In this document: positions 12,557 to 64,000 of the stretch, piece after piece
Layout of the letters: each line of letters begins with the position of its first letter
Position numbering within the stretch: the stretch's first letter is position 1
Origin: Ephemerocybe angulata
Taxonomy: Eukaryota; Basidiomycota; Agaricomycetes; Agaricales; Psathyrellaceae
Direction: 5' to 3'
Length of the DNA: 64,000 nucleotides
NCBI GenBank assembly: GCA_013368325.1
Contig: JAACJK010000004.1
Span: forward strand, 248,001 to 312,000
Translations under genes and position numbers: made by a program
The notes under the pieces: generated by a model
What the model saw: only the letters and a program-made list of their open reading frames with translations
The model's database searches: none
What the model was told of the DNA's origin: nothing

Positions 12557-14663
12557 TCACATAACCAGATTCTCTCGGCCAGGCCGCGGCGTGATGTCAA
12601 CCTTGAAAGCAGACGGTTTCCTATACACGAATCTAGTCAGAACTCTGCAGAATGAATGAACGTATTGGACGATATACTCACGCGACGGTATGGTCCATCA
12701 ACTCGAGCTTGATCTGAACGGGGTTGCCCAGGACGTCCTTCTCTGAGGGCGTGATGTCGAATTGGGTGAGCACAGAGGCGGCCATTGCGAAGAAAGCGTC
12801 GTCGCTGAAGTAGCGTCCAGGGCATATCCTACGCCCAAAGCCAAACGCGGCGTATTCAGGCCCGGGAACGGACTCGTCAAACTCTCCGTCTTTGGTGAGG
12901 AAGCGCTCGGGGATGAACTCGAAGGGCTTCTCAAAGGTATTGGGGTCGTGCATCATTGCCCTATGGGAGGGTACCCATCGTCAGAATATGTAGGAGATAC
13001 TGTATTGATAGCTGGACGAACCATGAGTTGGGCAATATCATGGTGTCTTTGGGGATGAAGTAGCCATTGTATTCCTCGTCTTCGGTAACCGTATGCGGGA
13101 CACCTGGGATCGGCCACGTTAGAGAAACGCAGAGGAGAAAACGGACCACATTCAAACGCACCAAGGGGAACGACGGTATAGTATCGGTTGACCTCTTTGA
13201 CAATGGCGTGGAGGTAAGGAAGTGAATCGCGGTCGCTGACGGAGGGGATACGGTTCGGTCCCACAACACGGTCGATCTCGGCTTGGGCTTTCTTCTGCAC
13301 ATGAGGGTTGTTTGCCAGAGCAAGGATCATGACAGATGCAGAGCTGACAGTCTACGAGGACGTCAATGTGAACTCTAAACGCTTGTAAAGGGCAAGGGCA
13401 GTCGTACCGTGTCAGCACCGGCCAAGTAAGCCTGAGCACATGCATTCCGCGCAACGTCCTCAGCAGTCCACCTGTCCGAACGCTCGAGAGTGAAGTCCGG
13501 ATCCGCATCGTCACCAAGGTGGTTCATAAGGCTCGCAGCCATGCTGGGATGAACACTCTGCTTTCCCTCCGTCTAACACGCATTTTGTCAACATCTCAGC
13601 CCTCAGGCAAGAAATAAAACTACGAGAAGGCACTCACCAAATCCTTCTTGGCATCATCCCAGGGGTTGTGCAGCAGGTCCCAGCTCATGACGGCCAATTG
13701 GTTGAAACGTACGCGCCAGCCAGCTCCGGGGAACCAGGCGGGGACGTGCCTAAGGATGGGGAACGTGTTGACCAAGAATCGACCTTGAGTGCTAGCCTCC
13801 GAAAACCCCTGAACGAGCGCCTCAGCGGCCTCGATGAGGGGCCTGTTCCGGCCTATGTCGTCAAACCCGTACGCCGAGCGCATGATGATCGTTCCGAAGA
13901 ATCTGGAGGAAATGTCGTTGGTCAGTCATCTCCCCTGTGCATAGATGGTGAAGTGATATCTCGACTTACACCTGAACATGCTCGAGGAAGTCTTTGGGAT
14001 TGTCTCTAAGCTTGCGCGTGAAGATTTCGACCTCTTCGTACATGATGGGGTGGTATTGGCCGACGGCATTGTGGTTCAGGTATTGGTGGAAGGCGCGACG
14101 GTGTTGTCTCCAGTCCGCTGCGTACTTCATGAACGCGAAGCTCCAGCCAATTTCCAAACTAAGGGGTAGCCACGCGAGAGCAGAGTTAGCCGAGGCGCAA
14201 CACGAGGAGAAGAAGAGAGAAGAAGATTCAGAAGATGGAGAAACTACGCACAGTTCGACCATCGGAATCGTGGGCCTATCAGAGGTATTAACAGATCTCT
14301 TTTCCAGAAGCTCCTCAGCGTGGTCCATCCTGCTGACGACCAGCAGTTTTGTTCCGAGAACTTCCAGGTAGACCATGCCCCCTAAAATGAACGGTCACGG
14401 AATGAGTGTCAAGCGTAACAGCATAAAAAAAAACTTTTGAGAGACGTACCATATTCCTCACAGAGCTTCTGGTAGCCCTCCCATGGCTTGGTCTTTGGGA
14501 TGTTCGACATGTTGCCCATGATGGGCACACCTCGGGGACCAGGAGGAAGGGGGAGCCTCTTTGGGTTGCGGCTCCGGCGAGAAAGAACGATTCCTCGAAT
14601 CGTGAAAGCCGCTGCGAAGATGCATGCAACGGTGATGAGTGACTGCATGTTTGAGAGAGACAT
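12557..14663 (-). CDS. Cytochrome P450 monooxygenase (microsomal)
   Basis: Nine exons: 14663-14450, 14381-14252, 14158-13970, 13902-13638, 13572-13408, 13351-13162, 13103-13022, 12960-12682, 12620-12557. They sum to 525 aa with every phase consistent. An N-terminal signal anchor (SLITVACIFAAAFTIRGIVL) is followed by the Pro-rich hinge LPLPPGPRGVP. The I-helix oxygen-binding motif is AGADTT (about 317-322), the K-helix ExxR is EVNR (374-377), PERF is at 429-432, and the heme loop FGFGRRICPG has its Cys at about 458. All key residues are present, so the enzyme should be functional. It looks like the large fungal group related to O-methylsterigmatocystin oxidoreductase-like P450s that are expanded in Agaricomycetes. 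The substrate is unknown and no reductase or biosynthetic core gene is nearby. An ATG at 14696 is in frame too; 14663 gives the more typical P450 N-terminus. Confidence 0.9.
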
Positions 14664-31906: not shown

Positions 31907-33267
31907 CTACTCGCTTGGAAGCAGCGCGTTGTACTTGATCCAAATGGGTGGAGGCTTACTATCATCGGATATTCCAAACCTCAGCTTGGGATACTCCCCG
32001 TCAGGCAAGCGAGGTTGAAGCCATCCGAACGCAAGATCTCGGGCTGTCTCCTCTCCAATCTTGATCCCCTCCCATCCCTGTGAGTACTATGCATTTTGAA
32101 GGTTCAGTCAAACTGGAAGAAGTGAATGCGGAGTAATGACTGACCTGATCGTAGACTAGCCATCGAGCGGCTTCCCAGCCATCTGGACCCAAGCCATGTT
32201 CCTCGATGATCGCCATGAGTGCTTGGTACAGTTTGGCCAAGTATTCCGGCGACCAATACCACCCGTAGTCACTGGGAAACGCGATCGTCTCCATGATGGT
32301 GTTGTCTTCGTTTTTCACAGGTGTGCCATCCATCCCAACCCCTGGCGCTTCAGAGAGTAGGGCCTTCAACTTCTGAAAGGAGGACGACAACTCGGATGGG
32401 GGTGCCGTTCGAGGAGGATAGACCGGCAATGATCGGAGAGCGCATTCGAGGAGTTCGATCTTTCGCGCAGATCTCCCGCTGCTGTGGATATGCAAGTTGC
32501 ATACATGCCATAACCACTTATCACCACGGGCTCTAGCTAGGAATCTGTTCTTCAATTTGAGATGTTCATGGGTGAACACCCACACGTCGGATTTCGCACT
32601 GGCAGCTAATGCTTGTGCATCGGGGTGATATGCATCCGGTATTCTGAATCCTTTGCCATTGGGGTATCTCTCCTCGTAGCGTTCGCGGAGCTTCTTTAAA
32701 CTGCGAGGGTATCCTCCTCAGACTTATCCATTTTGTAAATGGGAGTGTGCGTACTGTGCCTCGAATCCCTTGGGCCCACCGTATTTGCGCCATGCAACAC
32801 GCTCGACTTCTATCTCCTTGTATCTATAAGCTGTTTTGAGATGTTGTCCAATGCTGGAAACTCGCCTACGGCAAGGGATTGAGCACTGAATCCCGACTGT
32901 GCGCAAAAAGCTGGAAAGCACATACCGTTCCTCCGTGGACACGAGCCCATCCAGGTCTTTCTCGGGGTTGAGCCGATACAATGGTCTTATGTCAGATTTC
33001 AGGATCTACGGTATGTCGAATGAAAAGTGCTCAAAGCCTCGTCTGGTTGTGCTTGCTCACCATCCTTGAAGGGTGTATGGTTGAAGCCCTCCATTTGGAT
33101 TCATCCATTGGAAGAGATGTATCCTCTGGCTCCGACTCCGACTCCGAATCTGACTCTGGCTCAAATTCAGGTTCGGGGGGCGGAGCCTGGGAAGTGGAGG
33201 CCTTCAAGTTGGCGAGTCTTGTCGAGCGTCTACTAGGGGCGCTGTCATTTGGGCTCGCTTTTGGCAT
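31907..33267 (-). CDS. Array family copy A: five-exon protein of unknown function
   Basis: Five exons: 33267-33061, 33005-32926, 32823-32755, 32700-32145, 32086-31907 (363 aa, in phase throughout). Family landmarks: exon 1 MPK...DESKWRAST; exon 3 EVERVAWRKYGGPKGFEA; exon 4 ARGDKWLWHVCN, LPVYPPRTAPP, FQKLKALLSEAP, YWSPEYLAKLYQALM, HGLGPDGWEAARWLVYD; exon 5 WEGIKIGEET, GWLQPRLPDGEYPKL, PPPIWIKYNALLP. I do not know the function and see no catalytic signature, signal peptide or membrane helix. This copy has an acidic Ser/Asp/Glu run in exon 1 (SDSESESEPED) and a shorter exon 3 (69 nt against 108-117 in others). It is the 3'-most member of a same-strand array reaching to about 45.1 kb. Confidence 0.75.
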
Positions 33268-33628
33268 GGTGGTTGCAACGCAAGCTGGTTGTGACTCGAA
33301 CTTGTTTTATGTGAAGAGCCTGTCGATTAAGCTCTACTACCGGTTCCGCAATTCAATGCAAAAGTGGCAATTCCCGCAACCTTCCCACGTCCTTTCGTGG
33401 GCTACAGAACGGGCGCCTATTGGGAAGCCTCATCCATCGCCTTCTATCGATTGTATCATCGTTTGGTTTGTTTCTTGGGTACATTACTGCCTCCAGGCCT
33501 GCTATCATGACGACCCTTTGGTGTAGAGAGTGCGAACCGACTGGAGCTTGCGATTATCATGATGAAAGGAGAGTCAAGCATAAGTTAGTTGTCCATTAAG
33601 AAAAAGAGGCCTGGCTGCATCGAGACTG
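33268..33628. other. Spacer between copies A and B
   Basis: About 360 bases. The missing 3' half of copy B would be expected here, but I find no trace of the conserved exon 4 or exon 5 motifs in it. Confidence 0.4.
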
Positions 33629-35360
33629 CTAATAAATTAATGGAAGTTCGTATGTCCTTGGATGCTGAAATTTCCCCCCTTTGGCCGCATGGGGTGATCT
33701 GGCATACGCTGCTTCAAGTTCTGCAAGGCTATATAAAAGATTTGGCGAACATAAAGCTGCAAAAGACAGGAAGAACGTACTATGCCTCGAAGCCCTCAGG
33801 CCCACCATAGCGCTCCCACGCAATGTGTTCCACCTCCCTCTCGTTATAGAGCATCATGGGGATGAAACGACCATTAATAAAGGTGTTGCTGCCAATTGAA
33901 ATTCAGTTAAGTGCCGGAGACGCGGTGTCAACTCGGGGGACGCACCTGGGCCTTTCCACATATCTCAATCCATCCAGCATCTCTGACTTGAGCTTATACT
34001 GCCTGAGAGCCCATGTCTTACATATCTAGAGAACAAAAGAATAAATGAGTGACAGTCATCTCTATGACGTTCAAAGTGCACCAAAATTCATCCTCCCCCC
34101 CACCTTTTATTTCCCCACCCCCTTTTGACTTTAATTCGCCTTTTTGCCTGTTCTAGCAGGTTTTGACGAGACTTTGAAAAAGGGGGGGAACTTCCGAAAA
34201 GGGGGGGAGAATCGCAACTTTCCCCCCCTTTTGAAAATTCTCCCCCCCTCTTTCGGGAATTGATCCCCCCCTTTTCGGGTGCCGGCATGTCATTTCCCCC
34301 CTTTCACTAGTGTTAAGTAGTAGGTACATACAAGATATCATAATACAGTGTACAGTGTACCTTGTATTTACTTGAGCAAATGGCCATTGGACTTCAAGCG
34401 CTCGTCACATTACAGTAATGAATGGCATGATGGACTTCTCGGGGTCAAAGCCAAGTCGCAGATGGCGCCGGGACGGCATCAGGACTCGTAATTCATGCGT
34501 TCGTCTTCAAGCTTCAAGTGTATATAGTTGTATATAGCTATATATCGAGGTTTTAAACGCTTCTTTGCACTATTATGATAGGTACACTGCCCTCAGGTCT
34601 GCCATGAATCGAGATTTCGGACGTAGGGCGGCACAACCACGCCGCACAGAGGGTTCACGGATAATTCGGCGCTTAACCATGTCTCTGTAGATAGTAAAGG
34701 TACTTGAATAAGCTCATAATCACTTAAATAGCTCATGCATGTAAAGAATATGAGTGTCCATACATGGTGAACACACCAATTGACGCTTAGGTCAAGCTAG
34801 TATGACGCCCGGCGCCATCTTGAATCGTCGACTTAGCTCGGACTCGGCGGTCCATCGTGCCATTATCATATCTAAAAAGTGACGAGTCTGAAGTAAATAT
34901 CCTGAATGAGATATAAAGCACAAGGGATTATGACCCCTCAAAAGTTGACACTGCTGAAAGGGGGGGAAAGCGCATGCCGGCAGCCGAAAAGGGGGGGATC
35001 AAATTCCGAAAGAGGGGGGGAGAATTTTCAAAAGGGGGGGAAGTTGCGATTCTCCCCCCCTTTTCGGAAGTTCCCCCCCCTTTTTCAAAGTCTCTTCAAA
35101 ACAGGTTAAAACGACCAGAAATACGAGTTAAAGTCGAAAGGGGGATGGGGAAATAAAAGGTGGGGGGAGAATGAATTATGGTGCACTTTGAACGTCATAC
35201 ATCTCAAATAGACCTATGGAGTGTTGCTCACCTTGCGGCGTGGAGGTACAGTTGATTGCCGCCAACCATCGCTGTGGGCGGCAGTTGGTTGTGGTGGCGA
35301 AGGTATGGATCGAGCTTTAGCAGGCGTTGGAGCTCTGAATTTCCGCGGAGCCCTGGGCAT
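33629..35360 (-). pseudogene. Array family copy B: 3'-truncated and interrupted by a transposon in intron 1
   Basis: Exon 1 is 35360-35232 (MPRAPRKFRAPTPAKAR...WRQST), exon 2 34025-33946 (80 nt, the same length as in A, E and F), exon 3 33888-33781 (EREVEHIAWERYGGPEGFEA) and the start of exon 4 33728-33629 (LAELEAAYARSPHAAKGGKF). A stop codon then ends the frame at 138 aa, and the conserved part of exon 4 and all of exon 5 are absent. Splice sites and phases of the four remaining exons are intact. Intron 1 is 1206 bp because it holds the fold-back element at 34063-35199. The copy may still be transcribed, but it lacks the family's main conserved domain. Confidence 0.7.
34063..35199. mobile_element. 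1.14-kb fold-back transposon with ~250-bp G-tract terminal inverted repeats
   Basis: The outer ends are perfect inverted copies beginning TATGACGTTCAAAGTGCACC (left, 34063) and ending with its complement (right, 35199). The inverted similarity extends about 250 bases on each side (34063-34313 and 34945-35199) with indels and substitutions. Each arm carries many runs of 6-8 G or C separated by short AT-rich words (GAAAAGGGGGGGAG type). The element is flanked by a 6-bp direct repeat CATCTC (34057-34062 and 35200-35205), taken as the target-site duplication. The ~630-bp centre has no transposase ORF, so it is non-autonomous (MITE-like). It sits inside intron 1 of array copy B. Confidence 0.85.
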
Positions 35361-35633
35361 GGTTCGAGGCGTAGAGCTGGTGTCAAGCTTGTGCCGCAAG
35401 TGTCCTAATTATGAGGGAAACGGAACAAGAAAGAGTGGACCTGTCTCATGTGGTCACAAGGACCATTGAGACAGACTCGGGAATGGACATGTTGCGTTGG
35501 GCAAAAGCAGGTTTCAATTCACATCATGAGACAGGGTAAAACGGAAGGACTACAAAGGAGGAAAGAGAAGCATGGACCTTTCGTGAATCCCTACGCCGTT
35601 CGCCAAATTCTGTCAGCGTCCTAGGTTCGCAAT

Positions 35634-36496
35634 TTAGACGCCTGTTGGTAAGAGCGCGTTGTAAGTTGCCCAAATGGGGGGAGGTTTGTCCTTTTCATCC
35701 AGCCCAAAGTTTAACGATATCTTCCTCTCGTTTGGCAAACGGCCTCGTAGCCAGTCAAAAGCGCCATCGTAAACGCCATCATCGTCGATGGAGAAGCCTT
35801 CCCACTTGCGATACTGTTAGAGAATTGTGGCGTTCAGCACAACAGACACATCGATCAGGTGAGAGCAAACCTGGTACAAACCTGGTCGTAGACCAACCAT
35901 CGAGCGGATCCCCACCCCTCAGGACCAGTTCCGTGAGAAATAATGATATCCATAAGTGCCTGGTAGACTTTCGCGAAGTACTCTTGAGACCAGAAACTGG
36001 CATGGTCCTCCGGATACCCTATGCTATCATCCGTACGGGCATTTTCTTCGTTATTGTGAGGGAATCCGCCCCATCCCCTCTCCGGAGCCTTGCTAAGTAC
36101 GTCCTTCAAAGCTTGAAAAGAGGGAGATGGCGTTTCTGGCGGGGAGATTCGACGAGGATACCTTGGCAACTTCGTAAGAGCTGCGTTAAGCCATCTCTCG
36201 AGGTCGCGGACCCACACTCCCTCTTTGGCGGCGACAAAGATGTGCTCGTTGCAGGCATCCCACAACCACTGATCACCATGATTACGCTCGTTGAACCTCC
36301 TCCTCAGGTCAACGAGGGCTTCATTAGATGCAAAAGTGCCCTTTCGGTAGTACGAGATGCCCACGTCACCAACGTTCGACGAGGAGGGTTCACGAGTCTG
36401 TTGTGCCTGTTGTGCAGGCTGACGAGATTTACGCGGAGTTGAAGCTTTGGATCTGTTCGCGCGTTTGCTGGCAGTGGAGGGGTTGACCTTTGGCAT
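35634..36496 (-). CDS. Array family copy C: two-exon member lacking exons 2-3
   Basis: Two exons, 36496-35882 and 35813-35634, give 264 aa. The start MPKVNPSTASKRANRSKAS is the family exon 1 type. It runs without an intron into an exon 4-type region (RNHGDQWLWDACNEHIF, LPRYPRRISPPET, FQALKDVLSKAPERG, FWSQEYFAKVYQALMDI, GPEGWGSARWLVYDQ). The last intron and exon 5 are normal (YRKWEGFSIDDDG, GAFDWLRGRLPNERK, PPPIWATYNALLP). The block with EREVE..AW..YGGP is missing, as are the WRAS motif and exon 2. The frame is fully open, so it may be a functional short form. A nearby in-frame ATG at 36541 would add 15 residues; 36496 matches the other family starts. Confidence 0.7.
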
Positions 36497-36682
36497 TGTG
36501 TGGAGAAGAGTGAAGAGTGGTTGCACGGTCTCGCTGTCCAACTGGAAGTGGTCGTGGTTGAAGAAGCGTAAATTAGGTTCGGGGGGTCCGCTATGCCCGG
36601 GTTCATCGCGGGACTACTCGTAAGGTTAAATGGCATCGTATACCTTCCCTCATCAACCCTTCGTTGAAAGTTGTAATCAGAG

Positions 36683-37588
36683 TTATGCAGTAGGAAGCAT
36701 AGCATTATACCCTTCCCAAATCGGCGGAGGGGCATTGTCACTGGGGAACATCTCGAATTCCAATTGGGGCCTTTCCCCAGGTGGTAGGCGGGATTGAAGC
36801 CAGCCGTAGGCGTTGTCAACAGCACCTGACGAAGCGATCTTTATTCCGTCCCAGTGGGCATACTGTCGACGTTGAGAACATCAACACACGGAGGTCAGCG
36901 AAAGAGACGCACTTCTTCGTATACCATCCAACGAGCTGCAGCCCACCCGTCGGAACCAACGCCATGCGCTTCGATAATATCCATAAGCGCCCTGTAGACT
37001 CTGCTGAAGTACTCCTCGGACCAGTATTCCCCTTCTTCCAGTTCCCCAGAATTTTGAAACTCGTCGAATCTCACGTTTTGGGAGTTTCTCATTGGGAGAT
37101 TCATCTCGTAACAAGCCCTTGAGGGTGCCTGTCAGAAGGTCCTTTAAGGCTTGGAATGAAGGAGAAAGTTCGGCTGGGGGTCCGAGGAGGGTAGCTTGGT
37201 AGGTCTCGGAGAGCGATTGCAAGGCAGTTTCTCGTGTTTTCATGATCTCTGATCGCGACCCGGCATACCATCCACAACCAGCTGTTACCATGCGCCATTG
37301 CTTTCAAACGTTCCTCGAGGCTGCTGGCGGTGCCAGCGAAGGGGTTAAGTTGTGGATCTCTGGCATTCTTCGGCCTGGATTCTTTGACGTGGTCCGATAG
37401 ACCAAGCTGGGAGGGAGGTATGAGAAGAGTTAACTGCTATCAAGGAGGTACGCGTACTACTTCTGGAGCCCATCGTCGAAGTTAGCTGCCAACGCCTTCT
37501 GCGGTTATTTACTTGGTGGTTTCTGGGATGATTCGGAGAGAGTCCTAGCTGCTGGTCTAGATGGAGTTGAGGGAGCTGCCTTTGGCAT
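36683..37588 (-). pseudogene. Array family copy D: frameshifted member
   Basis: It starts like other members (ATG 37588, MPKAAPSTPSRPAARTLS). The central region carries recognisable pieces in three different frames: WLWMVCRVAIRDHENTRN and LRDLPSYPPRTP in one, ELSPSFQALKDLL in the next (shift near 37175), then MNLPMRNSQNVRFDEFQ and EEYFSRVYRALMDIIEAHG in the third (shift near 37105). Exon 5 (36862-36683, 180 nt) is intact: YAHWDGIKIASSG, NAYGWLQSRLPPGER, PPPIWEGYNAMLP. Exons 2-3 are not evident. The two frame changes within conserved coding sequence point to a pseudogene, unless sequencing errors caused them. Confidence 0.65.
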
Positions 37589-37874
37589 CTTACATAGGGA
37601 GATGGGAGAGTCGGAGACGAGGACAAAAATATGTTTCGTGGCAGTGCCAGATACCCCTCCTCAAATCAATCTCGTGGCATTTCAAGATGGGCGCCTAATC
37701 TACATAATGTGACAAGATGTTGAGAATAGAACTAACGTAAACGTTGGTCAACGACTGGCAAGGATTAGACCAGCAGGTTCACATATGGTATGTATAAGAA
37801 GTAACAGATGGAAGAAAGTCGATGCAAGACGACAAGTGAGTAATGTAATACAATTAGTTGTAGCTAGGCTTGAA

Positions 37875-39225
37875 CTAGGCGGAGGTGGGGAGGAGAGCGT
37901 TATACTGTGCCCAAATCGGGGGAGGATGGTTATTAGCGATGAACACCGAGAATTCCAGCTGTGGGTTCTCTCCAGGTGGTAATCGGGATTGAAGCCAGCC
38001 GTAGGCGTTGTCCTCAGCCTCCGTCAGACTGAGATGGATCCCGTCCCACTTGCGGTACTGTTAAATTCGATTTAGAACCTTCAACGAGACTGAGGTATGT
38101 AGAGATCGCATACGTACCTCGTCATATACCATCCAACGAGCAGCTTTCCAGCCCTCGTCACCTACACCATGCGCCCCGATAATGTTTATGAGCGCCTGGT
38201 AGATTCTGGTAAGGTACCCTGTAGACCAGTATTCCCTGTAGTCCTCCGGCCATGGGATTTCGTCCCCTCTGATATTGTGGGTGTTCTTGGGCGGTATTAC
38301 GTTCCCAAGCATGTTCATATCCCCCCGTGTCGGGGCCTCTTCCATAAGAGCTTTTAAGGCTTGAAACTCGGGCGAGAGTACTGCGGGAGGAGGGGTTCGC
38401 GGAGGATAGGCGGGTAGGAGCTCAACGGCAGTGAGAATGCACCTCTCATGGGCGTTCTTGCCTGCAACACTGTCAGAGAGGGAATACAAGTCGTTACACT
38501 CTTTCCATAGCCACTCGTCACCGCGCGCCTTGTCAATCATACGAGTCCTGAGGCGCCGAAGTTCTGGTGTGTTCGCAAACCTGTCTGAAGAGCTGGACGT
38601 TGCTGGAAAGGACACGATCCCCACATATCCTCCGGGGTGGAGATTGTTATAGTACGACGAGGGGGCAAGGAATCTCGCATTTGGCCTATTCTTCTTCTGG
38701 GTTTCGTGAAGTTTCTTCAAACTAGGAGATATTAGGGGTTACAGGGGCTTGAACAAGACATGGGACGCACTACGCCTGAAACCCATCTGGACCACCGTGT
38801 TTCCTCCAAGCAGCAAGTTCAACCTCTCTCTCATCGTACAACGTCATTGGGACGTTCGTTAGTTGTCCGTAGAGAACCTTTTCAATCCTATTGCGAGAAG
38901 TTGTCAGATATGGACTCAACCAGAACAAGGGTGCAACACACAATCCTTCCCAGCAAGGCTTCAGACCCAACTTGGCGGGGTCCGCGATCCTATACTCGTC
39001 TTTGACTGCAGTTTTATTGATCTACCGGGCGTTAGTACACGGTAGCGAGGACACCGCCAGGAGTTTGCTCACCGTTGTTCCTTCTCGGATACTCGAAGCC
39101 CTCCATGTAGATTCATCGACGACAACTGGTGCGTTCTTCGGCGACTTTCGAGCTTTCTTGGGAGATTCGGAGCTCTCCCTGGCTGCACGGCGTTTAGTTG
39201 GAGTTGAGGGGGCCGACTTTGGCAT
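37875..39225 (-). CDS. Array family copy E: intact five-exon member
   Basis: Exons: 39225-39073, 39021-38942, 38887-38771, 38721-38118, 38057-37875 (378 aa). All intron phases equal those of A, F and G (0, 2, 2, 0). Landmarks: DESTWRASSIREGTT at the end of exon 1; YDEREVELAAWRKHGGPDGF in exon 3; ARGDEWLWKECNDLY, LLPAYPPRTPPPAVLSPEFQ, LKALMEEAPTRG, YWSTGYLTRIYQALINI and HGVGDEGWKAARWMVYDE in exon 4; YRKWDGIHLSLTEAEDNAYG and PPPIWAQYNALLPTS in exon 5. The N-terminal 40 residues are Lys/Ser/Pro-rich (KKARKSPKNAP), which may act as a nuclear signal; that is inference. Function unknown. Confidence 0.75.
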
Positions 39226-39626
39226 CTTGATGATGGGGGAAGGAAACAAGGGGCGTTCGAGCCTTATGGAGTCATGTGGCGGTGCTATATACCCCGGATC
39301 ACATCTCGGTTCCGGGGCTTATGAGCAAGTTGGGCGCCTAAGACTTGTAACATACCGCTAAACAGGTGGCTAGCGAACGATTACGGGAGAAGATGCAGCG
39401 CACTTTCTTGGCAGTCAATTATTTAACAGATTTTGGTAATATACTCACATGAATTCGCGCCAGTTAGAAGAAACGTGAATCAATTTCGAGAAGCTGGGAT
39501 GGGATGTCCAGAGAAGCAACAGAGAAGTTCCGTATCGAAGGCTACCTAAGGGCTAGAGAATACGTAGAGCCGTCATCGGCTTCGGAAATCGAAATGATTT
39601 TGGAGAATCCCGCAGCGACTATCGAA
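39226..39626. other. Spacer between copies E and F
   Basis: About 400 bases containing the presumed promoter of copy E and the 3' flank of copy F. No further family exon is seen. Confidence 0.4.
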
Positions 39627-40975
39627 CTAGACAACGGGGAGCATGGCATTGTACTCCTCCCAGATCGGTGGAGGAACATCCTGATCAGGGAACATCGCAT
39701 ACTCCAACCGGGGTCTTACCCCGAGCGCCAGGCGGGGCTGAAGCCAGGGATAAGCCTTGTCTTCAGCATTAGACAAATCAAGATGTATTCCATCCCACTC
39801 GGCATACTGTTGAGACCATTAAGCAGCCTAGCAATACCGATGGAGGCAGTTGGGAGGCAGAACAAACGCACCTTGTCATACACCATCCAGCGAGCCGTTG
39901 CCCATCCATCAGGACCAGTGCCATGCGCCTCGATGACATCCATGAGAGCCCTGTAGATCCGGGTCAAGTACGGCTTGGACCAGTAGAATTCCTCGTAGGA
40001 TGGCCAGGAATTCTCGTCTACTCTCAGATTTCCATAATTCCTCATTGGCAAATCGTAGTCGTCATCCTCCCTCATAGGCGCCTCTTCCAACAGGGTCTTC
40101 AAGGCTTGAAACGCTGGAGATAGGGTGGTAGGAGGTCGAGTTCGGGGAGGATAGACCGGCAAGCGTTCGAAGGCAGTCAAAATGTGCCTCTCGCGGAGGT
40201 TGTTGCTCGTGATCTTGCCCCAGATACTCCGGTTACACGCTTCCCAAAGCCAGTCGTCACCGCGCGCCTTTTCGATCATTTGCGCCTTGAGGCGTATGAG
40301 CTCTGTCGTGTTCGCATATATGTCTGTTGGACCAGCTCCTGATCCTCCGAACGACACGATTTGAACAAGAGGGGCAGGCTGAAGCGCTGAGAAGTACGAG
40401 CGAGGTGCCTCGAACGCCTTGCCCTGATTTTTCGCCTTGTGCTCTTCGTGACGTTTCTTCAAGCTGGGAAATGTTAGGGCGAATGGAGGCTTGGACCAGG
40501 AGAGGCACATACAACGCATGAAACTCATCGGGGCCGCCGTGTTGCCTCCATGCAGCAAGTTCAACATCCCGTTCGTTGTATAAAATCATGGTCACGAGTG
40601 TCAATTTTCCCTTTATAACCTTCTTGATTCTAGTCCAAGCACATCAGAATAGGGGCCAGAACTCATCGAGAAATTGGGGACACACTTCTCTCTCCTGCAG
40701 GGCTTCAACCCCACATCCTCTGGGTTTCTAATCCCATACAAGTCCTTTACCGAGCCTTTCTTGATCTAACTTGGGTAAGTAAAACCTTTGAGAGAAAATC
40801 AGAGGTACTAGTGTTTACTCACCGTCGTACTTAGGCGAATGGTCGAAGCCCTCCAAGTGGACTCGTCGACGACAGCTGGAACCTTTTGAGGTAAGATCTT
40901 TGGGGATTTCTTAGGGGTTCCAGAGTTTGCCCTCGCCGCGCGTTTGGATGGAGTAGAGGGGGCGGACTTTGGCAT
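39627..40975 (-). CDS. Array family copy F: intact five-exon member
   Basis: Exons: 40975-40823, 40765-40686, 40629-40513, 40463-39872, 39806-39627 (373 aa). It is the closest relative of copy E: exon 1 is the same 153 nt, exon 2 the same 80 nt and exon 3 the same 117 nt. Landmarks: VVDESTWRASTIRLSTT; YNERDVELAAWRQHGGPDEF; ARGDDWLWEACNRSIWG, RLPVYPPRTRPPTTLSPAFQ, LKTLLEEAPMRED, YWSKPYLTRIYRALMDVIEA, HGTGPDGWATARWMVYDK; YAEWDGIHLDLSNAEDKA, PPPIWEEYNAMLP. Exon 5 has LALGVRP in place of the usual LPxGExP, a small departure. Function unknown. Confidence 0.75.
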
Positions 40976-41245
40976 CGAGACGGCAGCGAGATGGAAGAAG
41001 GAAACAACAAGGAAACGAAGTGCAAACGAAGTCGATTCTAATTATTAAGAGCCAAACTGGACCATGTGGCGGTGCTCTGCCTTGTTAGTTACGGGACCAT
41101 GTCCGGGCGTCTATTTCAGAATGCTGCGGGGCTAAAGTCGGCATTCAATGGAGAATCAATTACACGCAGATAGGAGGCAATTGGTGATACATGTAGAGAA
41201 CCGAAATAAAGGGTGAAACCATATCAAGTTAAACCGGCAGAAAAT

Positions 41246-42563
41246 TTAGAGGACGAAGGGGAGACGGGAATTATACTCGATCCAGATGGACGGAGGCTCG
41301 CCCTTATAGAAACCCAACTTGAGCTTCTCATTGTCAGGGAGGCGGCCTTGCAACCAGGCGTAAGCGCCATCTTCGGCTGTCTCGTCTCCGACCTGGATAC
41401 CACTCCATTGAGAATACTATCAGGTATCGGAGATGAGCAAACATGTATGCAGATAAAGGATAAAACCCGAAGCATACCTTATCGTAGACCAGCCATCGAG
41501 CAGCTTCCCAGCCATTTCGTCCAATGCCGTGTGATTTGGTGATGTCGATAAGCGCCTGGTAGACCCTGGTAAAGTACTCTTCGGACCAGAAGAGCTCGGA
41601 CCCGGGATTCCCGGCTTCCCTATCAATATTCTGGCCATTAGTCACACCTTTCTCCAGCTTGGTCGGCGCTGCCTTGAGCACACGCTTCAGCGCCTCAAAG
41701 GACGGCGAGGAACCAGGAGGAGGTGCGATCCGCCTGGGGTACTCAGGCAGCTTCTCAAGCGCCATCGCAAGCCGCGCCTCTCCCGGAACGTCGTCAGGGT
41801 GATCGACGAGAACCTGGTTCTGAACTACGTTCCACAACCACTTGTCTCCCTGCCCCTTGGTCTTGAACTGCTTAGCCAGCTCAGTCACCGAGGGCAGCTG
41901 CTTGTCCCCTGCGGTGGCAGCGGTGGTGGTAGTGGCACGCGCCTTCTTAGCCGAGGCGCGTGGAGCGCGGGGTTTATAGCCTGTAGGGGCTTTGAACACT
42001 TTGCCAGGATGGTTCCGCGTGTACTTCTCGCGAAGATCATCTAGGCTGTGAAAGATGGATGTGAGAGAGGGTGACCCGAAATGCGTCATCGACGTACTAT
42101 GCCTGGAACTCATCAGGACCGCCGCCATGGCGCTTCCACGCAACACGCTCTATATCCCTCTCCTCGTATAGATACTTAGACCCGGTATATGGCTTCGAGG
42201 GAATGTCAATCCTGTATGCTACATAAGCAATTGAGGTCAGAATGGAGGACATGTGAGACACACCTTTCCTCGTCGTAGGGAATGTCCCGTAAATCTTCAA
42301 CGTTAAGGCGATACAGCTGTGTTGCGTTGGTCTGGGTTATCTAAAACGCAAAGACATGTCATGGAGGCAGATTGGACGTTTGAGATAAGGTTCCTCACCT
42401 GCTTGCCCGATCTGACCCTCGATTTTGGGCCCCCAACCTCCTCGACCCCGTCCCTGTCCTCCAAAGCCCTGCGAATCAGATTGAGGGCATTCGCCTTCCT
42501 CCTGGCAGTCCGAGAAAGCGACGAAGCGCTTTTGACAGTCGCTTTCGAAGTTGTTTTGGGCAT
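41246..42563 (-). CDS. Array family copy G: intact, most divergent five-exon member
   Basis: Exons: 42563-42399, 42340-42264, 42211-42098, 42045-41478, 41416-41246 (364 aa). Phases are as in the other copies. Exon 1 (MPKTTSKATVKSASS) lacks the DESTWRAS motif. Exon 3 has YEERDIERVAWKRHGGGPDE. Exon 4 adds a basic/Ala-rich segment (RAPRASAKKARATTTTAA) and then GQGDKWLWNVVQNQV, KLPEYPRRIAPPPGSSPSFE, YFTRVYQALIDITKSHGIG and WEAARWLVYDK. Exon 5 has YSQWSGIQVGDETAEDGAYA and PPSIWIEYNSRLP, with one of the three usual Pro changed to Ser. Function unknown. Confidence 0.72.
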
Positions 42564-43790
42564 GGGATGGAGAATGGGCAACAGTGGAAGGAACGGTTCA
42601 AGGTGAAAACTGAGACAAGAGTCGGGCATTGTACCCCACAGCCCTCCATTGTGCCGATCGTCGTCGGCAAAGACCCATTAGTTACCGGGTTTTGGTGCAC
42701 CCGCCAACAAGGCGCTCAGCGGTCAGGTTGTGCCGAACCGCCGTCCTCCTGGGGAAAGCACAGAGTTACATCGTCGCAACGTCGGGAGACACCCGTCGTC
42801 TTGAAGATCAGGAAGTAGGAGTGGAACTTTCACTACGACGTCGTGAGGGCAAGAATAAGCTCGATCTTCTCCAGAGGTGAAATCTGCGCCTTTCAGAGAG
42901 CTTGACCAGCTCAAGTATGCTCCGATTAGTGGCCACGACGCGCGGCTTCCGAGCCTTCTGGTCCAAGGCACGGCCGTCCTTTCGTCCAAGAGTATATATT
43001 GCTTCCTTGGTCGTCCGCGTCGGTGTGGAGGTTTGATGCTTCTCGCAACTCCCCAGTCAAAAAGAGCTTCACATTAGGTGCCGCTCTGGCGAGAGTTGAG
43101 ATTGCGCAACGCTGAGGGCAGAATCGATGAACTTTGCGTCCCCATCCTTCTTCTACAAAGCCAAAGTAAAGAGCTCCCAGGTCTTCCCAGGTGTCGTCCA
43201 GGACGTAGAAAAATCAAAAAAGCCAGTCATCGCCTTCGCGATATCCAGCGACCGTGAGTTGTCCTGGGAGCTGAGGAGGAGTTTCCGAGTGGATGTCACA
43301 TTGTCTCTTCCTGAGATCCTGACAGGAACTTTGGGGCCGCATTTCGCATGATGAGTTGGGCTAAGGTGAACGTGTCGACCGGGTGAAGGAAGGTGAAAGG
43401 ACTTGTGGGCGACGCGTTGCCAGCCTGGTCCGGTTGACCCGGAGTGCCGAGCGTGAGCTTGGGGCTGTGCTGCCTCCCTTACCATGAGCGCCTAAAGTTG
43501 TCCAAGCGAAGCAGAAGGACGGATCTGGGTCGGAAACCGACCAATGAATCCAAATTCTGTCCCATTTACATGAAGGCAAAACTATAGTACATCCATAACC
43601 TTGTATTGGAGTCACATGGACGAATACATTGTAATGTCCGTCCTGGGGTCTGGGGAGGCCTGGGGGGAGCTGGATATTATGTCGCTACGGCGGGGGTCAC
43701 TTCTATCATGATCACGCATACTGAGATAGATGGTCAGGAAAAGCTGCGTTGTAGCCTTGAGGGAATTCAAAAAGATGGTCACGTTTGGTG
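42564..43790. other. Spacer in the array, no supported gene
   Basis: About 1.2 kb between copy G and the fragment duplication. Overlapping open frames exist on the minus strand (around 43150-43480) but change frame often and show no motif I trust. GGCGCTCAGCGG near 42710 recurs near 57158. Confidence 0.35.
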
Positions 43791-44330
43791 GTATTCTCGA
43801 AGTCTGTTCAGGCTAAGGATAGATTTCAGCGAGAAAATCCAGATTAATGGGCAAAAGCGGACGCACTGAGCCTGGAACCCATCAGGTCCACCATATCGTC
43901 TCCAGGCTGCCCTTTCAACATCCCGCTCACTGTATGAGTGGGCTGCAACCGTCATCTGCCTTCCTCCCTTGTTAATCGGCGTCCTACATTGATTTTTAAC
44001 GCATGTGCTAGGCTGAGGATAACTGCTGAAGGAAACTCACGTCACTTTGACGAAATCGAGGCCCTCTAAATCACAGTCTCTTAAGTCATACCGTTTCTTT
44101 GCTTCACCCTTGTTGACCTGAGATACACCCTGGTGTTACATATTTGATAACCTCGGTCGATTTGCTACTCACCCTGTTTCCTGGGGGGATGATTGAAGGT
44201 CTCCATGTTGATTCGTCCGTCCTAGAAGGAGCTGGAAATCTCGTTGCTGGGTTGTAGCCTTGAGGGGATTCAAACAGCCCTCCAGAATGGCCGCGTTGGT
44301 GGTATTCTCGAAGTCTGTTCAGACTAGGGA
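43791..44330 (-). pseudogene. Array family fragment H1 (exon 1 tail to exon 4 head)
   Basis: It contains APSRTDESTWRPSIIPPGN (exon 1 tail, fused to the preceding fragment's exon 4 head), an exon 2 with KGEAKKRYDLRDCDLEGLDF, an exon 3 with YSERDVERAAWRRYGGPDGF, and the head of exon 4 (SLNRLREYHQ) ending in stop codons near 43780. There is no conserved exon 4 body or exon 5. It is the left unit of a ~511-bp tandem duplication. Confidence 0.65.
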
Positions 44331-44850
44331 TATATTTCAGCGAGAAAATCCAGATTAATGGGCAAAAGCGGACGCACTGAGCCTGGAACCCATCAGGTCC
44401 ACCATATCGCCTCCATGCCGCCCTTTCAACATCTCGCTCACTGTATGAGTGAGATCGGACCACCATCTGCCTTCCTCCCTTGTCAATCGGCGTCCTAGTA
44501 CATTGAATTTTAACGCATGTGCTAGGGCTGAGGATAACTGCTGAAGGAAACTCACGGCACTTTGACGAAATCGAGGCCCTCGAAATCACAATCTCTTAAG
44601 TCATACCGTTTCTTTGCTTCGCCCTTGTTGACCTGAGATACAGGGCCCTGGTGTTACATATTTGATATCCCTCGGTCGATTTGCTACTCACCCTGCGTCC
44701 CAGGGAAATTCTTGAAGGTCCCCATGTTGATTCGTCCGTCCTGGGGGGAGCTGAATATCTCGTAGGGAGTGCCTTTGGCATGTTTGCTTGTGGAAATGTG
44801 AATGGTTGAAAAGACGTCCGTTAATTTCTCACTGCGGATCGTACTATAAG
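43850..44850. repeat. Tandem duplication, ~511-bp offset
   Basis: The segments starting near 43831 and 44342 (GAGAAAATCCAGATTAATGG) are near-identical for most of their length. Other anchors are AGCGGACGCACTGAGCCTGG, CCACCATATCG, and TCATACCGTTTCTTTGCTTC at about 44086 and 44601. Each unit contains one family fragment (H1, H2), so the fragmentation preceded or accompanied the duplication. Confidence 0.8.
44331..44781 (-). pseudogene. Array family fragment H2 (exons 1-3 and exon 4 head)
   Basis: It begins with an intact family start (ATG 44781, MPKALPTRYSAPPRTDEST). Exon 1 ends one base out of phase relative to intact copies. Exon 2 (VNKGEAKKRYDLRDCDFEGL) and exon 3 (SERDVERAAWRRYGGPDGFQ) follow, then an exon 4 head (SLNRLREYHQRGHSGGLFES) that runs directly into the exon 1 tail of H1. 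Nothing downstream of the exon 4 head remains. Right unit of the tandem duplication. Confidence 0.65.
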
Positions 44851-45085
44851 CAGGCGGCTCGGGAAAGGGTTTTCCAAGGTACCGCCTCTGATAAAAATTC
44901 CCAAGTTTATTGATAGTGTGGGTCAGTGTAAGACCGGGAAATGTACATGGGATGGGATACTCAATTGGTTTTGGAATTGAACAACGCTTCAACGTCAACT
45001 TCACCCAAATCGAGTCAGGGCGGGCGGATCGCCGTCGGGGTCTATCGTCGTCAAATCCTAACAGTGCCAAGCTTTGTGTTGCCAT
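44782..45085 (-). pseudogene. Array family fragment I (exon 4 head only)
   Basis: An open frame reads FPGLTLTHTINKLGNFYQRR then YLGKPFPEPPAYSTI, which matches the exon 4 head pattern of the family (a 'LxxLxxxYxxxxxGKxFxxPxxY' phrase). Downstream it runs into the start of H2. No other family exons are found upstream, so this is the 5' limit of the array. Confidence 0.45.
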
Positions 45086-62725: not shown

Positions 62726-63120
62726 TGTTACCACCTCGCATCGAGCCTACCCAAATTGATGTTTCCTTATCTAACTGGTCAGATTGGCAACATCCATCGC
62801 GCTTTACAACGGCAGGTGGAGTTTGTGACTTGCGCAAAGACTGGCTGCACGATGCTCTCTCGCAACCCAGGGTCACTCAGAACCTATTTTCGGTCCATTA
62901 TCTTACCGCCCGATTCATTGCTGGGTCGACAAGCATATTACCATTCCGCGTCAGTCTTGGTCGAGTTGGCCTCCTCCCGTCTGAGCGGTGAGATCCACAA
63001 GATACACCAGGCTTTACATGGGCAGCTACAGTTTGTGAAATGTGCCAAGTCTAACTATCTTCTAATTCTCGCAAGGCAAGGTAATCGAAACCTTTCTTCG
63101 GCTGATTATCTTCCCACATA
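62726..63120 (+). repeat. Diverged tandem repeat conserved at the protein level
   Basis: In the plus-strand frame, YHLASSLPKL...LTGQIGNI, then HRALQRQVEFVTCAK (about 62729-62842), aligns with YHSASVLVEL...LSGEIHKI, then HQALHGQLQFVKCAK (about 62940-63047). Many differences fall at third codon positions (TGC/TGT, GCA/GCC), suggesting descent from a duplicated coding segment. The surrounding open frame (62186-63121) overlaps the minus-strand relic and is not supported as a gene on its own. Confidence 0.5.
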
Positions 63121-63164
63121 ACATTGCTGGATCAAGCTCAAGACAGCCCACACTTGCAGAGATG

Positions 63165-64000
63165 GTCAACCCGAGGTCGGGGTGGCAGAGATGGTCAGCC
63201 AGAGTCGGGGTGGCAGAGATGGTCAACCCAAGGTCGGGGTGGCAGAGATGGTCAACCCAAGGTCGGGGTGGCAGAGATGGTCAACCCGAGGTCGGGGTGG
63301 CAGAGATGGTCAGCCCGAGTCGGGGTGGCAGAGATCGTCAGCCAGAGTCGGGGTGGCAGGGATGGTCAGCCAGAGTCGGGGTGGCAAAGATGGTCAGCCC
63401 GAGGTCGGGGTGGCAGAGATCGTCAGCCAGAGTCGGGGTGGCAGGGATGGTCAGCCAGAGTCGGGGTGGCAGGGATGGTCAGCCAGAGTCGGGGTGGCAG
63501 AGATCGTCAGCCAGAGTCGGGGTGGCAGGGATGGTCAGCCAGAGTCGGGGTGGCAAAGATGGTCAGCCCGAGGTCGGGGTGGCAGAGATCGTCAACCCGA
63601 GTCGGGGTGGCAGAGATCGTCAGCCAGAGTCGGGGTGGCAGGGATGGTCAGCCAGAGTCGGGGTGGCAAAGATGGTCAGCCCGAGGTCGGGGTGGCAGAG
63701 ATCGTCAGCCAGAGTCGGGGTGGCAGGGATGGTCAGCCAGAGTCGGGGTGGCAGGGATGGTCAGCCAGAGTCGGGGTGGCAGAGATCGTCAGCCAGAGTC
63801 GGGGTGGCAGGGATGGTCAGCCAGAGTCGGGGTGGCAAAGATGGTCAGCCCGAGGTCGGGGTGGCAGAGATCGTCAACCCGAGTCGGGGTGGCAGAGATC
63901 GTCAACCCAAGGTCGGGGTGGCAGAGATCGTCAAACAAGGTCGGGGTAGCAGACGTGGTCAGGCGGTCAGCCTGAGTCGGGGTGGCAGAGATTGCACCGC
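63165..64000. repeat. 28/29-bp minisatellite with ~282-bp higher-order period, running to window edge
   Basis: The unit is about GTCGGGGTGGCAGAGATGGT followed by CAGCCAGA (28 bp) or with one extra base before GTCGG (29 bp). About 29 units are present. Variants GGCAGAGATCG, GGCAGGGATGG and GGCAAAGATGG alternate in order. The rare GGCAAAG variant lies at about 63383, 63552, 63665 and 63833, spacings of 169, 113 and 168, so a block of about ten units (~282 bp) is itself duplicated. Long open frames across it result from the unit length and the lack of stops. Confidence 0.9.

Follow-up and report, generated by a model that had tools for sequence, protein, structure and literature searches.

A tandem gene array in Ephemerocybe angulata combines XPA_C-like modules with a second domain that matches no known family

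The window analyzed, a 64,000-nucleotide stretch of Ephemerocybe angulata contig JAACJK010000004.1 (positions 248,001 to 312,000), carries eight units of a single gene family, all on the minus strand between window positions 31907 and 44781. The encoded family has two modules. The first, module 1, comprises exons 2 and 3 plus the beginning of exon 4, and module 2 (the C-domain) comprises the rest of exon 4 and exon 5; a short basic tail lies N-terminal of the modules. Judged by sequence, module 1 is a homologue of the C-terminal subdomain of the XPA/Rad14 DNA-binding domain (Pfam PF05181, XPA_C), so that the array shows a known domain that has expanded in an unusual context, together with a second, nameless domain. 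XPA is a repair scaffold, and it seems that part of this repair protein has been copied, shuffled, and reused for another role.

A preliminary description of this DNA had placed the array at 31907 to 45085. The tandem array is real up to 44781, but no match was listed past 44793, and the last part of that interval adds nothing. The features are as follows, where all splice models of the array are inferred from sequence and paralogy and lengths are given in amino acids (aa).

31907 to 33267, minus strand: gene A, 377 aa; exons 33267-33061, 33005-32926, 32865-32755, 32700-32145, and 32086-31907; XPA_C-like module plus C-domain.
33629 to 35360, minus strand: gene B, 138 aa; exons 35360-35232, 34025-33946, 33888-33781, and 33728-33629; XPA_C-like module only.
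34063 to 35199, no strand assigned: inverted-repeat element in intron 1 of gene B; transposon-like; pairs of related arms also occur on eight further contigs.
35634 to 36496, minus strand: gene C, 264 aa; exons 36496-35882 and 35813-35634; basic tail plus C-domain, no XPA_C.
36683 to 37588, minus strand: D, a C-domain-type pseudogene; its family sequence is spread over several reading frames, with internal stops.
37875 to 39225, minus strand: gene E, 378 aa; exons 39225-39073, 39021-38942, 38887-38771, 38721-38118, and 38057-37875.
39627 to 40975, minus strand: gene F, 373 aa; exons 40975-40823, 40765-40686, 40629-40513, 40463-39872, and 39806-39627.
41246 to 42563, minus strand: gene G, 364 aa; exons 42563-42399, 42340-42264, 42211-42098, 42045-41478, and 41416-41246.
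43779 to 44781, minus strand: gene H (the earlier pieces H1, H2, and I), 220 aa; exons 44781-44692, 44632-44556, 44494-44378, 44323-44173, 44117-44041, 43983-43867, and 43812-43779.

Modules 1 and 2 occur together in A, E, F, and G, whereas module 1 stands alone in B and is doubled in H, and module 2 stands alone in C. Genes A, E, F, and G are intact, as had been proposed: each has an open five-exon model, and all 16 introns run from GT to AG, measure 49 to 65 nucleotides (nt), and follow the phase pattern 0-2-2-0. The near-constant exon sizes were likewise borne out, with an exon 2 of 80 nt in A, B, E, and F and 77 nt in G and an exon 5 of 171 to 183 nt; exon 5 of gene A is 180 nt with the acceptor that matches its paralogues and 171 nt with the next AG. 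Six units carry a 125-nt DNA repeat in register; with D as the reference, the other five are 66 to 75% identical to it. The conserved words listed in the preliminary description are real but looser than claimed, since G lacks the DESTW motif, A reads DESKWRAS, and F and G read GGPDEF. Its count of five broken pieces (B, D, H1, H2, and I) holds clearly for D, which has stops inside the match, but B and H1/H2/I read open. Gene C is shortened in that it has only two exons and no XPA_C, yet its 264-aa model is open; its basic N-terminal tail joins directly to the second half of exon 4.

Module 1 has the layout of a sheet-helix-hairpin followed by a helix that bears AW..GGPxxF and is collinear with XPA/Rad14 over the strand, the helix, the hairpin, and the following helix. 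Gene H passes the Pfam XPA_C cutoff in two stretches (29.3 bits versus 25; expectation value [E], 7.8e-7) and is the sole array member to do so; gene B scores 17.1 bits (E, 0.0052), under that cutoff. When a profile of four modules was searched against 177,635 PDB sequences, Rad14 came out on top, weakly (E, 0.052). After B and H were added, the resulting seven-module profile matched Rad14 with an E value of 2.2e-4 in the same sequences; rows 1 to 4 were all Rad14, and the next row was unrelated (E, 0.99). Profile-profile comparison with three XPA sequences (that of the fungus itself, yeast Rad14, and human XPA) gave a probability of 94.2%, or 95.9% with B and H included. The profile-profile score was 42.0, a value reached by 0 of 300 column shuffles (maximum, 16.7), and the fungus's own XPA scored 37.1 bits against the array profile, compared with 8.1 bits for the best of 2,000 sequence shuffles.

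Some search results count against this homology. Pfam searches with the whole proteins A, E, F, G, and C returned no XPA_C match, nor did searches with the modules of A, E, F, and G alone, and a whole-protein profile run against PDB listed a beta-lactamase first (E, 0.042) and Rad14 third (E, 0.26). The link of A, E, F, and G to XPA_C runs through H, by alignment and profile; C has no module 1 to be linked. The silence of the four isolated modules is what would be expected if the XPA likeness were due to convergence or chance, an explanation that we consider extremely improbable in view of the shuffling results, the score of H above a curated cutoff, and an alignment that stays collinear across the module. 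The preliminary description recognized no named domain in the family and had named a strong match to a known domain as grounds for revision. Such a match now exists in part, through XPA_C in the N-terminal half, while the domain of exons 4 and 5 is still without one.

Exons 4 and 5 carry many residues that are identical in all five aligned proteins, among them GD.WLW, LP.YP.R, GW..ARW.VYD, and PP.IW..YN. Searches of module 2 against Pfam and NCBIfam returned nothing beyond stray matches. The exon 4 part is predicted, with modest confidence, to be helical, and its model had no significant match in PDB; the exon 5 model is without confidence. Exons 4 and 5 are best described as a second, partly helical domain that is unmatched to known domains.

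What module 1 might do can be approached from XPA. According to PMC9739396 and PMC6599211, the XPA DNA-binding domain combines a C4 zinc finger with a sheet-helix-hairpin and a helix-turn-helix; DNA contacts are made by Thr140 and Thr142, and Trp175, at the tip of the hairpin, stacks on the junction bases. PMC9739396 reports that the zinc finger is essential to DNA binding but makes no DNA contact itself. On the array alignment, the position of human Lys141 (counted by hand from Thr140/Thr142 of PMC9739396) is Lys in six of the seven module rows, and the Thr142 position, also counted by hand, is Thr in three of seven. The first 30 residues of the seven array proteins have a net charge of +4 to +8. 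The array departs from XPA/Rad14 in that its module occurs as a repeat or is joined to an unrelated domain and its hairpin varies in length. Averaged over all pairs of six modules (with one H unit omitted), identity was 0.65 in the helix/GGP part, 0.32 in the first strand-helix, and 0.14 in the hairpin. In contrast, the hairpin is not unusually variable among the three XPA sequences, where its identity is 0.40 versus 0.42 for the helix, although three rows are few.

We favor, with a moderate degree of confidence, the interpretation that these are small nuclear proteins that reuse the XPA junction clamp, with a conserved scaffold and a variable hairpin, and that have spread by tandem duplication. 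Their nuclear location is suggested by basic tails that resemble nuclear localization signals. The scaffold helices of module 1 would dock onto nucleic-acid structures, for example junctions between duplex and single strand; the hairpin, which is the junction wedge in XPA and is now variable, would set what is contacted; and module 2 would recruit a partner.

Several features speak against such a clamp. The C4 zinc finger is absent in the seven array models, which contain at most three Cys each, and therefore no C4 site is possible; XPA_N (Pfam) had no match in the array proteins at an E value of ≤10. By hand count on the alignment, an aromatic residue occupies the Trp175 position in only one of seven module rows (B), so that the wedge is not conserved, and the NPH preceding that position is retained in none of the seven. 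Since the net charge of module 1 ranges from -2 to +8, a basic DNA cleft is not general.

The lost finger, the unconserved wedge residue, and the range of charge favor the main alternative, in which module 1 still has the XPA fold, no longer binds nucleic acids, and acts as a protein-interaction module, for example for repair partners such as TFIIH or in an unrelated complex. We judge this alternative plausible but clearly the less probable. It gains from the precedent of SLC30A9 (PDB 2enk), a different kind of protein with an XPA-like stretch, and loses from the Lys retained at the Lys141 position in six of seven rows and from the basic N-terminal tails. SLC30A9 resembles the array in carrying its XPA_C-like stretch outside a canonical XPA protein, and the XPA of this genome matches 2enk (E, 6.7e-5). 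However, SLC30A9 is a solute carrier, unlike the array proteins, and 2enk was absent from the matches of the array profile at an E value of ≤1. A bolder extension of the junction-clamp interpretation, which we think unlikely, is that the clamp has become a fast-evolving recognition family: the scaffold would have been kept, the finger dropped, the hairpin diversified copy by copy, and a new effector domain added, perhaps for sensing aberrant nucleic acids in the nucleus, for instance intermediates of transposition or of viral replication. A role of the family in conflict or recognition is a possibility, the sole hint being that no part of the module varies more than the hairpin.

The copies appear to be under selection for protein function, as the preliminary description had held: among A, C, E, F, and G, all 10 pairwise comparisons show more differences at the third codon position than at the first or second. 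The closest pair, E and F, has 0.34 nonsynonymous substitutions per site (dN) and 1.38 to 1.66 synonymous substitutions per site (dS), and the remaining pairs have reached saturation or come close to it. The comparison of dN/dS between copies that had been proposed thus gives about 0.2 to 0.25 for E-F, with dS near saturation. These results bear on the suggestion that the array is decaying and functionless and that its copies resemble each other through common descent only. The D pseudogene, the early ends of B and H, and the inverted-repeat element inside B would accord with decay, but the four frames of 364 to 378 codons, the 16 intact introns, the excess of third-position differences in every pair, and the low E-F ratio make functionless decay improbable. 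The picture of a local family with duplication and some decay is upheld by the open frames, the two-unit duplication in H, and the D pseudogene. Growth would most likely have proceeded through unequal crossing-over of whole genes and of a cassette of exons 2 to 4a, followed by loss of single modules.

Local multiplication and the element in B could also suggest that the family descends from a mobile element or from a virus gene captured by the fungus. This origin is very unlikely. The genes are intron rich and confined to a single locus, six protein searches of the same genome yielded no credible match elsewhere, no match in viral contigs was confirmed, and no transposase-type Pfam match was found at an E value of ≤0.001 in 20 neighboring frames, chosen from among the longer ones.

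The fungus has a true XPA gene on a separate contig, C128, which scores 67.8 bits in the genome search with Pfam XPA_C and 88.8 bits against XPA_C after splicing; its match to XPA_N (E, 3.8e-4) is under the XPA_N cutoff. The array genes are therefore not orthologues of the single XPA gene. The true XPA (L007:1282-1890) seems to carry an intron within the beginning of XPA_C. Six single-protein searches of the genome, together with Pfam XPA_C, found the array, the true XPA, and one chance match on C223 (E, 1.45) but no further array copy; this search ignores introns and scores the best candidates only, and distant copies may escape it.

Genes B and H owe their open models to reassembly of what had been called broken pieces. 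Piece B gains an exon 1 at 35360-35232, which gives four exons. Its intron 1 is 1,206 nt long and holds the inverted-repeat element of about 1,137 nt; about 70 nt remain without the element, near the usual intron size here. The element (34063-35199, ~1.1 kb) has the ends TGACGTTC adjoining TA and contains no stop-to-stop frame of at least 130 aa. Its arms occur as pairs, 83 to 94% alike, on contigs C189, C68, C125, C197, C69, C216, C218, and C43. It looks like a member of a nonautonomous DNA transposon family.

Joined together, pieces H1, H2, and I yield a single open seven-exon model, gene H, with two tandem XPA_C-like modules and no C-domain. The first unit comprises exons 1 to 3 and the beginning of exon 4; the second repeats the end of exon 1 and exons 2 and 3 and closes with a short exon 4 that stops early. 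These units lie about 515 nt apart, are 85 to 97% identical in DNA over three aligned stretches, and differ with a dN of 0.05 to 0.06 and a dS of 0.15 to 0.21 (74 codons). Within H (43785-44763), the introns differ less between the two units (4 of 166 sites) than do exons 2 and 3 (16 of 194), which is not the expected direction; the Fisher P value of 0.02 belongs to a single comparison picked after inspection, with the end of exon 1 (9/40) and the start of exon 4 (6/41) not counted. By eye, 7 of the 12 exon 3 differences fall in one 12-nt run at the hairpin. Conversion from another copy, selection, or intron constraint could account for the intron/exon pattern.

Elsewhere in the window, frames of a cytochrome P450 gene lie at 12956-14394 on the minus strand, and a frame at 63066-63998 runs to the window end; the peptide AEMVNPRSGWQRWSARVGV starts repeating near the start of this frame, which may be a DNA tandem repeat.

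No description of an XPA_C tandem family in fungi was found in one open-licence library, and an account may have been published elsewhere. A tandem family reduced to the C-terminal clamp of XPA would show that this part can be separated from the zinc finger and give rise to a new gene family, and the array offers natural variants for testing what the hairpin reads.

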